Below, piece after piece: positions 9,824 to 45,456 of a stretch of DNA of 64,000 bases. The stretch spans positions 1,240,001 through 1,304,000 of the forward strand of contig NC_035923.1 in assembly GCF_000348985.1 (NCBI RefSeq). The letters are read 5' to 3'. The notes under the pieces were generated by a model. It was not told the DNA's origin. It made no database searches and worked only from the letters and a program-made list of their open reading frames with translations. Source of the stretch: Huiozyma naganishii CBS 8797 (Eukaryota > Ascomycota > Saccharomycetes > Saccharomycetales > Saccharomycetaceae). A program made the translations under genes and the position numbers. Positions within the stretch are counted from its first letter, which is position 1, and the number at the start of each line of letters is the position of its first letter.

Positions 9824-10447
9824 TGAGTATGTGTATGGATATGGAGAGGGTTACTAATAGCAAACGCGACGAAGTGAACAATTATCGAGTTCTCCCAGTA
9901 AACCGCAAAAAAGAAGAGAGCACTACGACACCGGATTTATATACAATTCGACCTTTCTAGAAAGCAAATCATCACCAGCACTTACATAACCGCATTCTGC
10001 CCATCCCTGACAGCACAACACGGACGCCCCGCTGCAACAGCAATCTATTTTAAATGACGAGGCTTGGCTATCCTCCCAGAGAGAGCATCTTTTGCGACGC
10101 CGCCGGCTTTCTATATTTGGCAGGGCAGACACAGTTGCCAGATTGGGAAACTTCTAANNNNNNNNNNNNNNNNNNNNNNNNNNNNNNNNNNNNNNNNNNN
10201 NNNNNNNNNNNNNNNNNNNNNNNNNNNNNNNNNNNNNNNNNNNNNNNNNNNNNNNNNAAATGGGGTAATCTGGGCGGGTAACCCACCCGATGGCGTAATG
10301 TTGTCCCCTTTGGGACATCGTATCTCTAAGTGCCCAATCTGTAAGCCCTCTTCGCCCTTGTGGTGTGCAAGAGGAGGCAGTGGACACAAGGGTCTGCCTG
10401 CCTGCCCACGATTGATTTGAGTACGGTGCTTGCCGCTGTGGCGTAGG
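9824..10447. other. PUN1/VPS36 divergent intergenic region with assembly gap
   Basis: A divergent promoter region holding no supported gene. It contains the 100-N gap, a Reb1-type CGGGTAA at 10275-10281 overlapping a GGGTAACCC palindrome, and a short inverted repeat GTCCC-N4-GGGAC just downstream. The unsequenced part could hide more; its true length is unknown. Confidence 0.7.
10158..10257. other. Assembly gap of exactly 100 N
   Basis: Exactly 100 undetermined bases, the conventional placeholder for a gap of unknown size. Protein-coding sequence on both sides (PUN1 and VPS36) is intact, so the gap is confined to intergenic DNA. Confidence 0.99.
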
Positions 10448-39402: not shown

Positions 39403-40413
39403 TTATTGCTCGATGGAATTGTCAATTCGTTCAGTGGGTAAGCAGTCATCCATGCGGGCCACCACACGCACAATATTTTGAACCATATAGGGCATGGACA
39501 TCAGAATGTAAGCGAAATTGACATAAAAGGGGTCCTTCAGCGTCCCTCTCACTCCAACATTGCAGCAGTCAATGATCTTATGCGCTAAATGGGACGCTGA
39601 AACTACTGGAGCCCAAAACTTTCTCGGTGGATTGAATCCGGCAAACATAGATGTGTCCAGCTGTCCAGGTAAAACTAGTAGGGTCCGTACTTTGGAAATA
39701 CCTCTTGAATTCAGTTCAGAGGAGTAAGAGTGATGGAATGCAATTGAAGCAGCTTTGCTAGCAGCATACCCAGCCACTTTGGCAGGGGCAAGGATTCCTA
39801 ACGCGCTTGCAACGTTCACAATATAGCATTGTTGGTTCTTTACAAGCTCTTGTATTATTCTCACCGGGGAGATGCTATTCACTTGCATTATGTCTTGAAG
39901 TTCGTTCATTCCTGTAGCTTTACAGCTCATGTATGGTAGTCTGAATCCTGCATTGTTGATAATTAGGTTGATTCTTTCGCCATATTCTTCTCTCAGCTTT
40001 ACTAGCGTCTCGTTCAATTGCTCAGTGTCTAACAAATCGCAGGCACAGTACACCACTCGTTCTTGTAATTTGTCATCCTCTGCCTTTGGCGGTGTCTTGT
40101 CAAGGTTGACTATGCTTAATGACGGATACTTGGATAGTAGTTCCAGGATAAGTGCATTCCCTAGCCCATTCGACCCCCCCGTAATCACAGCAACAGGATC
40201 TTGTAGTTTTCCTATCGTAACCCAATCTTCTCGACCAAACGTCTTGAACCAGTTATTCAATCTTAGGAAGCACGACAGCACAACCGAATATGCAAGCAGC
40301 GCTATGAGGAGGTTTTCGGAAACATATTGCCGAAATGGGAGCACAACAACAATTGGAAATCGGATAACTGGTATAACTACCCACTCTACAATTGAATCCA
40401 CAGTGAATTCCAT
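39403..40413 (-). CDS. TDA5: Membrane-anchored short-chain dehydrogenase Tda5
   Basis: 336 residues (326 in S. cerevisiae, YLR426W). Short-chain dehydrogenase/reductase of unknown substrate. The cofactor motif TGGSNGLGNA is at about residues 76-85, NNAGF follows at about 150, and the catalytic Tyr-x-x-x-Lys is seen as YAASKAAS near 216. N-terminal hydrophobic segments at about residues 10-30 and 32-52 suggest membrane anchoring. The S. cerevisiae gene is recorded with a 5' intron; here a single ATG-initiated frame covers the whole protein. Its upstream region has been invaded by two solo LTRs. Confidence 0.85.
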   Translation of the reverse strand: MEFTVDSIVEWVVIPVIRFPIVVVLPFRQYVSENLLIALLAYSVVLSCFLRLNNWFKTFGREDWVTIGKLQDPVAVITGGSNGLGNALILELLSKYPSLSIVNLDKTPPKAEDDKLQERVVYCACDLLDTEQLNETLVKLREEYGERINLIINNAGFRLPYMSCKATGMNELQDIMQVNSISPVRIIQELVKNQQCYIVNVASALGILAPAKVAGYAASKAASIAFHHSYSSELNSRGISKVRTLLVLPGQLDTSMFAGFNPPRKFWAPVVSASHLAHKIIDCCNVGVRGTLKDPFYVNFAYILMSMPYMVQNIVRVVARMDDCLPTERIDNSIEQ

Positions 40414-40633
40414 CGTAGCCCTACAGAACTGAGTCAGGTGGACATGCTCGTTAAGAGTTCCGGTTACTGGGTTATTTTATATTTTTCACTTTAAACAGGG
40501 CAAGCGGTGCTTAGGAAATGGTAAGGATGTTGATTAAACCGTGTATATCCTAATGTGGAGGGCTCAATCTTGGTCAATTTACAGTACCAGACATTTGAAG
40601 CCTCTCCCCAATATAAATTATATACTATGAATA

Positions 40634-40989
40634 TGCTGGATATAGAAAATGAATATGATAAGGATGATAGGATATCATCATAGGCATAAACAGGACACAC
40701 ACACTTGATAAAAGACACAAATGTTAACGAGACAAATAACGATGCCACAAGTGTGGAAGTATCCACCACAGTGAGAAAGTGAAAAGTCACACCATTGACT
40801 TTGAGCAAATTCTCATTTATATAAAGCCTAACTACATCGAATGAATTGATCCTTCTATCTGTGACAATATAGAAGAGATCATCGAACCATATACTTATAT
40901 ATTAAATATACACCAGAAGTAAAGTGAACTAAAACAGCTCTTTACTCTACTACAATGAATAGCCACGGCGAACAAGACCCTATTCAACA
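40634..40989 (-). mobile_element. Solo LTR, Ty-like retrotransposon (left copy)
   Basis: A 356-bp element reading on the minus strand, starting TGTTGAATAG and ending ATATCCAGCA (TG...CA termini). It is near-identical, about 15 differences by eye, to the 358-bp copy at 41167-41524 in inverted orientation. The size, termini and 5-bp flanks fit a Ty1/copia-class LTR. No internal coding region is present nearby. Its plus-strand flanks are gaata on the left and ttatc on the right, so its own target duplication is broken. Confidence 0.88.
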
Positions 40990-41166
40990 TTATCTCATAT
41001 TCAAATAAAGACCTTTTCCAGCTCGATGCTACTTGTTTACTAATTTTGGATTAATTTAAAGATTTTTGTAAATTCCATTCAGTATTCCTAGCGTTGCTTT
41101 TGTATAAGTTGATATTTCTTAATGGGATTCAAAAGGTGAATATAAAACACCTCAGTTCAAGTATTC
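40990..41166. other. 177-bp spacer inverted between two LTRs
   Basis: AT-rich unique DNA between the inverted LTRs. Its first five bases (ttatc) and last five (tattc) are reverse complements of the bases outside the opposite LTRs (gataa and gaata). Turning this spacer around restores a perfect 5-bp target duplication at both LTRs. Confidence 0.75.
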
Positions 41167-41524
41167 TGTTGAATAGGGTCTTGCTCGCCGTGGCTATTCA
41201 TTGTAGTAGAGTAAAGAGATGTTTTAGTTCAGGTATGACTTCTGGTATATACTTAATATATAAGTATATGGTTCGATGATCTCTTCTATATTGTAACAGA
41301 TAGAAGGATCAATTCATTCGATGTAGTTAGGCTTTATATACGTGAGAATTTGCTCAGAGTCAATGGTGTGACTTTTCACTTTCTCACTGTGGTGGATACT
41401 TTCACACTTGTGGCATCGTTATTTGTCTCGTTAACATTTGTGTCTTTTATCAAGTGTGTGTGTCCTGTTTATGCCTATGATGATATCTTATCATCCTTAT
41501 CATAGTCATTTTCTATATCCAGCA
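41167..41524 (+). mobile_element. Solo LTR, Ty-like retrotransposon (right copy)
   Basis: A 358-bp element with the same TGTTGAATAG and ATATCCAGCA ends as the left copy, on the plus strand. Its flanks are tattc on the left and gataa on the right. It ends 17 bp from the TUS1 stop codon, so it probably supplies part of the TUS1 3' UTR and polyadenylation region. Confidence 0.88.
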
Positions 41525-41541
41525 GATAAAATTACAAAGCT

Positions 41542-44500
41542 TCAACTACTGTTATCAATACTACATTCGAGCAGCAACTGTCTATTCGGGATATTCGGGT
41601 GGCTCATACCTAGTACGACCTCAGCACCGGACTGCCCATCGCCCAGTAGCTGTACCCTTCTCCCCTTGATGATTTGGATTGGTGTCATCGCTCTCAAGGG
41701 CAATGACTCTGATAGTTCCTTCAAAGCGTATATTTGGACAAGGCTCTCCGCAACCAAGATCAAATACTTTTCAAAAATAAGGGCTCCCGTACAACAAAAG
41801 TCCAAAACCAATATGTCAGTTTCCCAGTTTGCTATTTCACCGTACTTATTGATGCGGACTATGGCCTGGTCATAAACAATGAGGTATTCCTTCAATGTCT
41901 CGTGGAGTGGCACAAAAGATATAGGATTTGCCTTGCACAGTGCTATATCTCTTTTCACCCTTTTGATCATCTTCCCCTTCGATAAACCTTTGCTAGGAGA
42001 GGAATCGCCGGATGGCAATATAATGTTCTTCTCCTTTAACTGGGCTAGGATACCATCATCGTTATAGAACGTGGGTAAGGTTATACCTTCATCATCAAAA
42101 TCACTCTGATAAAACAGGACTCCTTTGTTAGTGCACACCACAAAACAGGTTTTAAACGTGACAATCTTACTCACAACTGTGTTGTTGAGAGAAACAGAGG
42201 ATCCAGGTAGTTTGTATTCCTTATACTCTTTGAACAGTTTCAACGCTTTTGACAATTGATCAAATTCGGGCGTCAACACATGAATCTTGTTCTTTCGCTC
42301 GTAAAATAAATGCTTGGAGCTGCTAAAGTCTTCCGCAAATTTGAAACAGCTTACTTTATCGCGAATAACAACACCGACCACGGTATTGTCATGTAAGTAC
42401 CGCTCGCTGTGATAATATGCGCCCAGGATGCTCGGAATACTGAAGTAAATCAGATTCTTATTATCTAGGACAAAGACAAGGCCGAGCTTATGATTGACCT
42501 CAAGCATGGTTGCACAGGAACATTGTATTACTTTCCTGAGCTTGTTGTCTATCCCATTTTCCAACCGAATCAGTATGCCATAGTTACATGCCACCATCAA
42601 AAAGGTCTTCCCCTCGTGCCTTATCGTGGACGTTGTCAACAAATTTGCTACAAGGGGGAACCCGAATATTTTGTCACTGTTACCACGGGACTCGTATTTC
42701 TGCAATGCTTTGTCAATTTCCGAACCATCTATTGTCATGGGGAGGTTTACTGGTGCGTCTTTATCAGAATACGCAAACTGTGAACTTAGCGCTTCAAATT
42801 GGATAGCGGAAGACATTTTAGACTTACGAGCTTTGAATGCAGAAATGATCGCATCGATCCAACCTCTTTTTTCCTTTACATTCGCTGCCAGAAGAGAAAC
42901 AGATTCGTTCGTCGCTGTGTTTCGAATTTTGAAGTTCAGCTCTTCTTCATCTGGATTTTTGTTCGAAATACCTGTATGAGTTTTCACGTCTTTCTCACTA
43001 TGTATTGTGCGACCCACGGCTGCACTCAACAGATGCGGTCTTCCTGAACCCATCGGTGAAGTCAAGGACTGAGGGCCCAATTTACGGGCAGAATCCAGTT
43101 GGTGATAACTATCTCCGGCAGAACTTTCTAATAGGCTGTGAATAGAGTCCACATTTACTTTTTTCTCAAGATTCAAATAGTCTAAAGGTATCGGTTTCTC
43201 GGAAAGTTTATAGACTTTTTGTCCATTTTTAACTAGCGGTTCTGTAACCAGCAAATAATTGTCCAATAGCGCGACGTACACTTTTATCGGATCTAACCAC
43301 AATTCTCTCTTCTTTAAAAGATTGCCGGACCAAAAAAGCTTCCTTTCGGGATCTTCCAAAGCCAAATCAAATCCATTATTATTCGAATTTTGCTCTTGCA
43401 ACGAGGTCGATATACCATCTGGCGACGAGTGGTTTGCTTTGTTAAAGTAGCCAGCGGGTGTGCTATTATTAATTTGAAGCTGTAAAGAAAATCTCACGAG
43501 TTTCCGGTGGTCGATTGCGTCACCATGTACTTTATTAACATCGGAACTCAGTTGCTCAATGTCCCTTATGACCATTTTCAAATAGTCATGGTCCTCGTTA
43601 GATACGTCTGTATTTTTCAATATCGAGTTTAACGTGATGGGCATGTTTTGCAAAGATTTGAAGAACCCACCAAAAAATATCACGTCATGGTATGTTTTTG
43701 AACGGATGATCGCCGGACAATCGTCTACCTCTTTAAGCCACTTGGAGAATTGTGTATTGTGTTTCTTCTCCCACGTTATAATCTCATGGACTGTCGCCAT
43801 TGCCGTCGCATACTGTAGGTACAACTCCCTTGCCTCATGACACCATTTCAGATAGATCTTGCCTATACCGTCTATAAATTTGCCCTTCGTTTTGATCTTC
43901 CAAAAGAGGGGTCCCATCAGGTACTCCTTATGAAGTTGAATCATGGGTTCAAAGATGGAAAATGCTAACTTAGAAAAGTCAGGGTCGTTTGGCAGGAAAC
44001 TCGGGTCAAACCTTTTTCCGTATATTTCCACAGCAGCATTTGCCATGTTCAGGGACCGCTCCTCCAAGATAATTAAATCGAAGATAAAACTTTGTCTTTG
44101 AATCTCATGATTATCTATCTCCTTCAAGTCTTCTGGTGTCAAAGACCAGTAATCGGTCCAGAACCCCACTGATTTGTTTGTTATTTCGGACATCGGAATA
44201 TCCTTCCTACTGCCCCTAGATGGACAATTTTCCGTACAAGTGTAGGAATAGCACTGGAGCGTGTGTTCCTCCTTGTCGTGGTCTTCGAATGAGTAACACT
44301 GGAGCAGCTCGGTGAAGATTCCCTGGACGTCTAGTCCCGCGATGATGATAGTCAAATCCGATCCCTCATCGTCATCATTCTCGAACCGTACGGCCCCCTG
44401 GGTAACCAGTGATGCTATTATTCTGTCGACGTTGGAATCTATTATCTCTTGGTCGATGTTGTTGGACAGTTGGAATTCCAGTAACCTTTGTATCACTTGA

Positions 44501-45456
44501 TAGAACTCGATTTTCCCGAAAACGAACTCGTTGAACCACTCGAAGTAAATCTTTAGAATCCACTCGTAAATGTCAGACAGTTTGTACACGGTATAGCACT
44601 GGTACAACTTATTCTCATCTAGTGCCGCTATGTTGAACGGTTTTGTTGGGGCCGTCAAACTTGGAGCCAGCTCCAGCGGTTTGCTCTTGGACAGCGAATT
44701 GAAACTACTATGGCGTGCGTTGTTCGAGTTGTTGAAAGTGTAGTTCGAATCCGAGTAATAACTCTCGATACTGTCCGACTGTTTACTGAGTTCACTAATA
44801 TTCCTCAAACTAGACACCGGAGGCGGCGGTGCATCCCTTAAGAATTCCCCGTAGTCCCGCACGCTGGTTACTGTCGGGCTCGGAGAGATGGGTTCCTTTT
44901 CAAAGGGTACTTTTCTAATATGCTGTTGCGAGGGGGACACATCGGTCTCGGACTCGCCCCCGCTGAGCCATGATGACTGGGGGCTCTTTATATGTATGGT
45001 GGATCCTGATACTAGGGATGCCCTTTCCGCTTCGTCTATGTGTGCATTTATGGGTTCTCTGTGTGAGTCACCCTTCGATTGTGGTTGTGGTTGCTGTTTT
45101 GGATGCGGCGGTAGGGGCGGTGGTCTTCTATGCAAAGGAGTCCTATTATGTCCGTGTACGATCTGTGGTGATGCTGATCGAGGTAAGAAATCTGGTGAGC
45201 CGGCAGAAAACCCAGCTGGATGCCTTCGCGACCGATGTCGTGGCGGTGTCGACGGTGCGGCTTCAGTGAGACCGGGCGAACCGTTCACAGCCCTATTTTC
45301 GCCCAATGGGTCCCCTCGCCCTCCCTGCACCTGCGCCTCTGTTCTTTTGTGCTCCAAAAAAGATCTCCTAGTGTTTAGCGGCGGCAGTTTGGGCAAGACC
45401 ACATCTTCTCCCTGGTGCGGTCTAGTATATTCCCTACTATGCCCTCTGCCGTACAT
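41542..45456 (-). CDS. TUS1: Rho1 guanine nucleotide exchange factor Tus1
   Basis: 1304 residues (1307 in S. cerevisiae, YLR425W). GEF activating Rho1 at the bud neck and in cell wall integrity signalling. After a Ser/Pro-rich N-terminus come a helical region at about 280-420, a DH domain at about 455-650 (starting near ERSLNMANAAVEIYGKRF), a PH domain at about 700-890 (SGNLLKKRELWLDPIKVYV) and a C-terminal citron-homology (CNH) domain at about 935-1280. The ATG at 45456 (MYGRGHSREY) resembles the yeast start, and LPKLPPLNTRRSFL is conserved just after it. Further upstream codons in frame lack an ATG. Confidence 0.95.
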   Translation of the reverse strand: MYGRGHSREYTRPHQGEDVVLPKLPPLNTRRSFLEHKRTEAQVQGGRGDPLGENRAVNGSPGLTEAAPSTPPRHRSRRHPAGFSAGSPDFLPRSASPQIVHGHNRTPLHRRPPPLPPHPKQQPQPQSKGDSHREPINAHIDEAERASLVSGSTIHIKSPQSSWLSGGESETDVSPSQQHIRKVPFEKEPISPSPTVTSVRDYGEFLRDAPPPPVSSLRNISELSKQSDSIESYYSDSNYTFNNSNNARHSSFNSLSKSKPLELAPSLTAPTKPFNIAALDENKLYQCYTVYKLSDIYEWILKIYFEWFNEFVFGKIEFYQVIQRLLEFQLSNNIDQEIIDSNVDRIIASLVTQGAVRFENDDDEGSDLTIIIAGLDVQGIFTELLQCYSFEDHDKEEHTLQCYSYTCTENCPSRGSRKDIPMSEITNKSVGFWTDYWSLTPEDLKEIDNHEIQRQSFIFDLIILEERSLNMANAAVEIYGKRFDPSFLPNDPDFSKLAFSIFEPMIQLHKEYLMGPLFWKIKTKGKFIDGIGKIYLKWCHEARELYLQYATAMATVHEIITWEKKHNTQFSKWLKEVDDCPAIIRSKTYHDVIFFGGFFKSLQNMPITLNSILKNTDVSNEDHDYLKMVIRDIEQLSSDVNKVHGDAIDHRKLVRFSLQLQINNSTPAGYFNKANHSSPDGISTSLQEQNSNNNGFDLALEDPERKLFWSGNLLKKRELWLDPIKVYVALLDNYLLVTEPLVKNGQKVYKLSEKPIPLDYLNLEKKVNVDSIHSLLESSAGDSYHQLDSARKLGPQSLTSPMGSGRPHLLSAAVGRTIHSEKDVKTHTGISNKNPDEEELNFKIRNTATNESVSLLAANVKEKRGWIDAIISAFKARKSKMSSAIQFEALSSQFAYSDKDAPVNLPMTIDGSEIDKALQKYESRGNSDKIFGFPLVANLLTTSTIRHEGKTFLMVACNYGILIRLENGIDNKLRKVIQCSCATMLEVNHKLGLVFVLDNKNLIYFSIPSILGAYYHSERYLHDNTVVGVVIRDKVSCFKFAEDFSSSKHLFYERKNKIHVLTPEFDQLSKALKLFKEYKEYKLPGSSVSLNNTVVSKIVTFKTCFVVCTNKGVLFYQSDFDDEGITLPTFYNDDGILAQLKEKNIILPSGDSSPSKGLSKGKMIKRVKRDIALCKANPISFVPLHETLKEYLIVYDQAIVRINKYGEIANWETDILVLDFCCTGALIFEKYLILVAESLVQIYALKELSESLPLRAMTPIQIIKGRRVQLLGDGQSGAEVVLGMSHPNIPNRQLLLECSIDNSS

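Follow-up and report, generated by a model that had tools for sequence, protein, structure and literature searches.

The window analysed here is a 64,000-nucleotide stretch of the genome of the yeast Huiozyma naganishii CBS 8797 (C2:1240001-1304000), and searches were run over the 10.85-Mb genome in 13 contigs. The gene products examined in the window are those of a budding yeast, namely VPS36 (YLR417W), a relative of TUS1 (YLR425W), and coronin-, RING-, SDR-, G-patch- and ATG17-like proteins, and the genes presumably keep the S. cerevisiae YLR order. The TUS1-like gene, which encodes a Rho GEF related to YLR425W, is located on the minus strand at 41542..45456. The nearest TUS1 proteins are about 51% identical to its product over nearly the full length, and that of Kazachstania africana is among the TUS1 relatives, at 50%. 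A gene for a short-chain dehydrogenase (SDR) follows downstream, also on the minus strand (39403..40413); we take it to be YLR426W by position, as a gene-order name.

Two LTRs in inverted orientation lie in the intergenic region between these genes. LTR A (356 bp, 40634..40989, plus strand, sense TGCTGG...CAACA) is preceded by gaata at 40629..40633 (plus strand, letters checked exactly), and LTR B (358 bp, 41167..41524, minus strand) is followed by gataa at 41525..41529 (plus strand). The two are separated by a spacer of 177 bp with 71% AT (40990..41166), which begins with ttatc (40990..40994, plus strand) and ends with tattc (41162..41166, plus strand). The 3′ ends of both LTRs, corresponding to the region of the gag start codon, face this spacer. 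The spacer matches the genome only once, at its own position, and the two LTRs are the sole repeats of at least 40 bp reported in the window by an ungapped search. The stop codon of the TUS1-like gene is just 12 bp beyond gataa; LTR B has the same sense as this gene, whose 3′ end may now form inside the LTR (window 41525-41544).

The sense of the element can be deduced from another copy, C9:235452, in which the sense strand, TGCTGGATATAG...CCTATTCAACA, continues past CAACA into tggtagctccttacc (beginning with tggtagctcc), a putative primer-binding site like that for tRNA-iMet. It fits a tRNA-Met of this genome (anticodon CAT; gene ending in ..ggcgcta) at 9 of 10 positions, where the CCA end of that tRNA and its initiator identity are our assumptions. 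At the same locus, a gag frame (495-1562, minus) overlaps the LTR and has its first ATG inside it; this frame, from one partial copy only, scores 25.6 bits against the Pfam TYA family with a cut-off of 22.9. Because this copy runs from CAACA into the primer site, and into a gag frame starting within the LTR, the sense of LTR A is on the plus strand and that of LTR B on the minus strand. The first-pass annotation had labelled A as minus and B as plus, which is reversed relative to the element sense, with no effect on its argument. Judged by their TG...CA ends, the duplication of about 5 bp, the iMet-type primer site and the TYA-type gag, A and B are full-length solo LTRs of a Ty1-like (copia-type) element. 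Twelve integrase-core matches were counted for the genome as a whole, irrespective of LTR family.

The interpretation of the flanks depends on the LTR termini being correct. At least 43 matches to LTR B, A and B included, are present in the genome, where copy counts are lower bounds because the best 40 of 69-74 candidates were scored per search (best 40 of 74 for LTR B). Flanks of 42 of the 43 were read together, that of C2:1182248 being the end of a partial match, for which the true end was read by eye; those of C5:752674 were read separately, and C13:272292, available on one side only, was not judged. Among the 35 other full-length copies, 22 have their own 5-bp duplication exactly, five have it with one mismatch and eight have none. 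The termini used by the first-pass annotation are therefore the true ends, since other full-length copies carry their own target duplications precisely there; the alignment of additional copies that the annotation had proposed as a check comes out in its favour. The eight copies without a duplication include the full-length partner of a second inverted pair on C7 (see below), two with primer-site-like sequence on one side (C9:235452 and C5:741843), one interrupted by another LTR near its end (C11:458513), and four to which none of these accounts applies. Duplications are also intact, by eye, at four further places: C5:752674 (gattc), C4:101130 (ttatc), C3:22270 (aatgt) and C1:131722/134921 (tcttc). 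The last of these (C1:131722-134921) is a single LTR of the family, interrupted by roughly 3 kb in which an integrase-core match lies (C1:133469), and the interrupted LTR keeps its duplication.

The coordinates of LTRs A and B and their four 5-bp flanks (gaata/ttatc and tattc/gataa) are exactly as first described. In place, the flanks of neither LTR match each other; when 40990-41166 is reversed, the locus reads gaata-LTR-gaata and gataa-LTR-gataa. Thus, the inner flanks are read as inverted copies of the duplications (ttatc of gataa, duplication 2; tattc of gaata, duplication 1), and the spacer as inverted. An origin from a single insertion is ruled out, as two different duplications are present. 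Between different copies of the family, 5-bp flanks match at a rate of 0.57% (8/1406), and the chance rate is 0.39% from position-specific composition and 0.38% from local intergenic 5-mers. The odds that both cross-matches at A and B arise in fixed register are about 1.5e-5 to 3.2e-5, so that the earlier statement that two such chance matches are very unlikely holds, at about 1.5-3 in 100,000. Over all 42 copies, 12 of 1722 flank cross-comparisons match, three of them within the two inverted pairs.

LTRs lying within 1 kb of each other were surveyed among 50 places (43 LTR B matches, with 1 and 6 from further searches), and the second of these pairs is among them. A 129-bp fragment at C7:664533-664661 and a full LTR at 664844-665199 are inverted relative to each other, with a 182-bp spacer and arms 96% alike. 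GTATT at the intact end of the fragment is the same as GTATT at the far end of the full LTR, whose own flanks differ (AAGTG/GTATT). One duplication is testable in this pair, the other having been lost with the truncated end of the fragment, and a single cross-match of this type has chance odds of about 0.4-0.6%. Exchange is hence found in both of the two inverted pairs whose arms are 96-97% alike, in the second on one side only. It is seen neither in the diverged inverted pair, nor in the nested arrangements, nor in the direct pair C2:979315/979918. In the diverged pair (C7:50581/50939), the two copies belong to different subfamilies (69% and 88% to the query); the plus copy has cgttt intact as its duplication, and the flanks of the minus copy (cttac/ctaag) show no duplication, be it original or exchanged. 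In the nested set C2:1182173/1182248/1182669 (to 1182851), the inner copy keeps gataa by eye, and the nested direct copy C11:458852 is normal with ttttc. Each LTR of the direct pair C2:979315/979918 has its own duplication, gaaat/gaaaa (one mismatch) and aaacg/aaacg. Another direct pair, C3:558964/560307 (to 560666), consists of nearly identical subfamily-2 LTRs with agttt/agttt on the outer and aataa/aataa on the inner sides. The 983 bp between them contain 20 N and match C4:692260-693002 partially, in permuted order. An inversion of the spacer cannot make this flank exchange, which could come from a circle captured into a solo LTR or from misassembly.

An inversion made by a crossover would leave A and B as reciprocal mosaics. 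In an alignment of 37 copies, the two differ in 16 of 364 columns, and stretches of identity between them span at most 85 columns. Counts of haplotypes over 12 informative columns point both ways when columns 17, 67-70 and 82 are paired with column 240: for columns 82/240, the current combinations occur in five and zero other copies and the un-crossed ones in 20 and four, while for columns 67/240 the current haplotypes are favoured. Under a copying model, un-crossing A and B at columns ~76-131 gains 3.5-4.9 ln units over four settings; in a control with one setting, a gain of 3.6 was reached by 11 of 150 random copy pairs sampled from 595 possible ones. Chimerism of the two LTRs is thus at most suggested by these patterns, and it is not claimed here because the column pairs with 240 point both ways. 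A and B alone share a (GT)5 repeat, for which three or four units are present in the other 32 copies where the repeat was found; variant events private to two copies number 49 on 27 of 666 pairs, with (GT)5 entered twice in this count. The shared (GT)5 would fit a conversion tract and lends slight support to one, and chance slippage is possible.

The locus is probably best explained by two oppositely oriented insertions that were both cut down to solo LTRs, and by recombination of one with the other, in which the spacer was turned around. In this scheme, two Ty1-like retrotransposons would have inserted about 175 bp apart between the TUS1-like and SDR-like genes, with gaata as the target duplication of one and gataa as that of the other. 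The interior of each would have been lost via recombination between its own two LTRs, and the elements, or the solo LTRs left of them, would have recombined with each other as inverted repeats, reversing the 177-bp spacer and exchanging the inner duplications; the loss of the interiors may come before or after the flip. The anatomy and the exchange of the duplications are directly visible in the sequence; that recombination was the agent is deduced from the homology of the LTRs, their orientation and the second case. The first-pass annotation had already read the locus as a flip by recombination between the LTRs, and this reading gains from the exchanged duplications, which are far beyond chance, and from the C7 pair on its testable side.

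S. cerevisiae needs Rad52 and Rad59 for DNA between inverted repeats to invert spontaneously (PMC8748988). By analogy, the flip at this locus probably proceeded by annealing or by template switching at a replication fork. The instability of inverted repeats drops with spacing and divergence: in one study, recombination was down 300-fold when the spacer was extended from 12 to 100 bp, and rearrangements were down about 20-fold from 12 to 200 bp (PMC10164571). Cruciform extrusion is accordingly an unlikely trigger at this locus, as the 177-bp spacer is beyond its strong range (PMC10164571). A more tentative proposal, which we regard as possible and rather doubtful, is that the pair acts as a slow reversible switch, in which close inverted solo LTRs turn their spacer around so frequently that the species is polymorphic for its orientation, and the two highly similar pairs happen to have been caught flipped. 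If true, such a switch would change the intergenic sequence next to TUS1 and its neighbour. TATAAAA and AATAAA, which the spacer carries on the TUS1-to-neighbour strand in its restored orientation but not in its present one, were considered and discounted in DNA of 71% AT.

The most serious rival to inversion by recombination is an assembly error, in which the 177-bp spacer has been placed backwards between inverted repeats of about 357 bp; the yeast itself would then carry a pair of normal solo LTRs, each with its duplication intact. Assemblers readily put a short unique segment the wrong way round when it is enclosed by long inverted repeats, and a spacer in the restored orientation needs no event at all. 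The assembly is a gapped draft, as a run of 100 N occupies 10158-10257 of the window, and 20 N are present between the C3 LTRs. However, with 16 differences between A and B and identical runs of up to 85 columns, the two LTRs could be phased with reads a few hundred bases long, and the C7 case has just 129 bp of inverted homology, which is within an ordinary read length. The flanks are also consistent in 27 of the 35 other full-length LTRs, an observation that does not bear on spacer orientation. Taken together, a misplaced spacer is improbable, with a small but real share of the possibilities left to it.

Crossed double integration, an idea derived in this analysis, is very unlikely. Two cDNAs would have integrated together at sites about 175 bp apart, with each cDNA joined to both sites; the intervening segment would thereby be inverted without homologous recombination. 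The geometry yields exactly these flanks, and the spacers of the two cases are nearly equal in length (177 and 182 bp). This process, however, predicts direct pairs as frequent as inverted ones, with reversed spacers, which are unseen in the two non-nested direct pairs: C2:979315/979918 is normal, and the flanks of the C3 pair do not agree with this model either. Moreover, A and B differ in their variants, and they are thus probably not from one cDNA batch.

Insertion of a hybrid element requires a cut-and-paste transposon, and it should therefore not apply to an LTR element. It was considered for the Galileo transposon, where exchanged duplications alone were said to leave such an insertion possible and chimerism of the copies decided the matter (PMC2775673). 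Finally, mere coincidence, with unrelated flanks and decayed true duplications, is hardly credible: the flanks are AT-rich and one 5-bp cross-match between copies has a rate of 0.4-0.6% by itself, but coincidence would have to produce two in fixed register (~1.5-3e-5), and the highly similar inverted pair on C7 adds a third.

Exchanged target duplications at opposite copies of an element are a hallmark of inversion by ectopic recombination, as stated in two Drosophila studies (PMC2775673; PMC3355041). Inversion 2z3 of Drosophila buzzatii resembles the present locus in having opposite Galileo copies with exchanged duplications at its ends, ascribed to ectopic recombination; on the other hand, Galileo is a DNA transposon, the inversion is a large chromosomal one, and both chimeric copies and the non-inverted arrangement were shown, whereas here solo LTRs flank 177 bp and chimerism is only suggestive (PMC2775673). 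Inversion 2s of Drosophila mojavensis is similar in that the 9-bp duplications of BuT5 were exchanged and taken as evidence of ectopic recombination, although it is a large fixed inversion between remnants of a DNA transposon (PMC3355041). In an S. cerevisiae ade2 inverted-repeat reporter, the DNA between the repeats was inverted in a Rad52/Rad59-dependent manner, and spontaneous recombination in wild type was 0.62% for gene conversion and inversion together. In contrast to the natural LTRs of about 357 bp with 3% divergence at this locus, the repeats of the reporter are long and engineered (PMC8748988). The Ty1 elements and solo deltas of S. cerevisiae are alike in LTR length (~332 bp) and in the origin of solo LTRs from LTR-LTR recombination, and inversions are named among the rearrangements that Ty1 elements mediate. 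They are of another species and another element, and the likeness rests on length and origin, not on LTR sequence (PMC3102749). In the literature on exchanged duplications or on Ty1 and solo-LTR inversions, as covered by titles and the beginnings of abstracts with most subscription papers outside, the precedents are from Drosophila and no yeast solo-LTR case was found. The accessible parts of PMC10085805 and PMC2672092 contain no further case, and the tool of the latter, as described there, does not check target duplications. The signature of exchange is thus already established, and the A/B locus is a tiny, well-marked yeast instance of it.

Thanks to exchanged duplications, small LTR-driven inversions can be recognised in one genome, with no need of a relative for comparison. 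This yeast has two cases, each with a spacer of about 180 bp (the second tested on one side), and the pattern could be counted across sequenced yeasts. Such counts would measure how often close LTRs flip the DNA between them, and they would serve as a modest but direct test of intergenic reshaping by inverted repeats. The surroundings of other copies were also inspected. Nearness of LTR copies to tRNA genes was examined and led to nothing. The LTRs at C9:235452 and C3:686273 have the same 15 bases beside their TGCTGG ends (gcttctagcagtact, in sense orientation), which suggests that these two copies may have inserted into a repeat.
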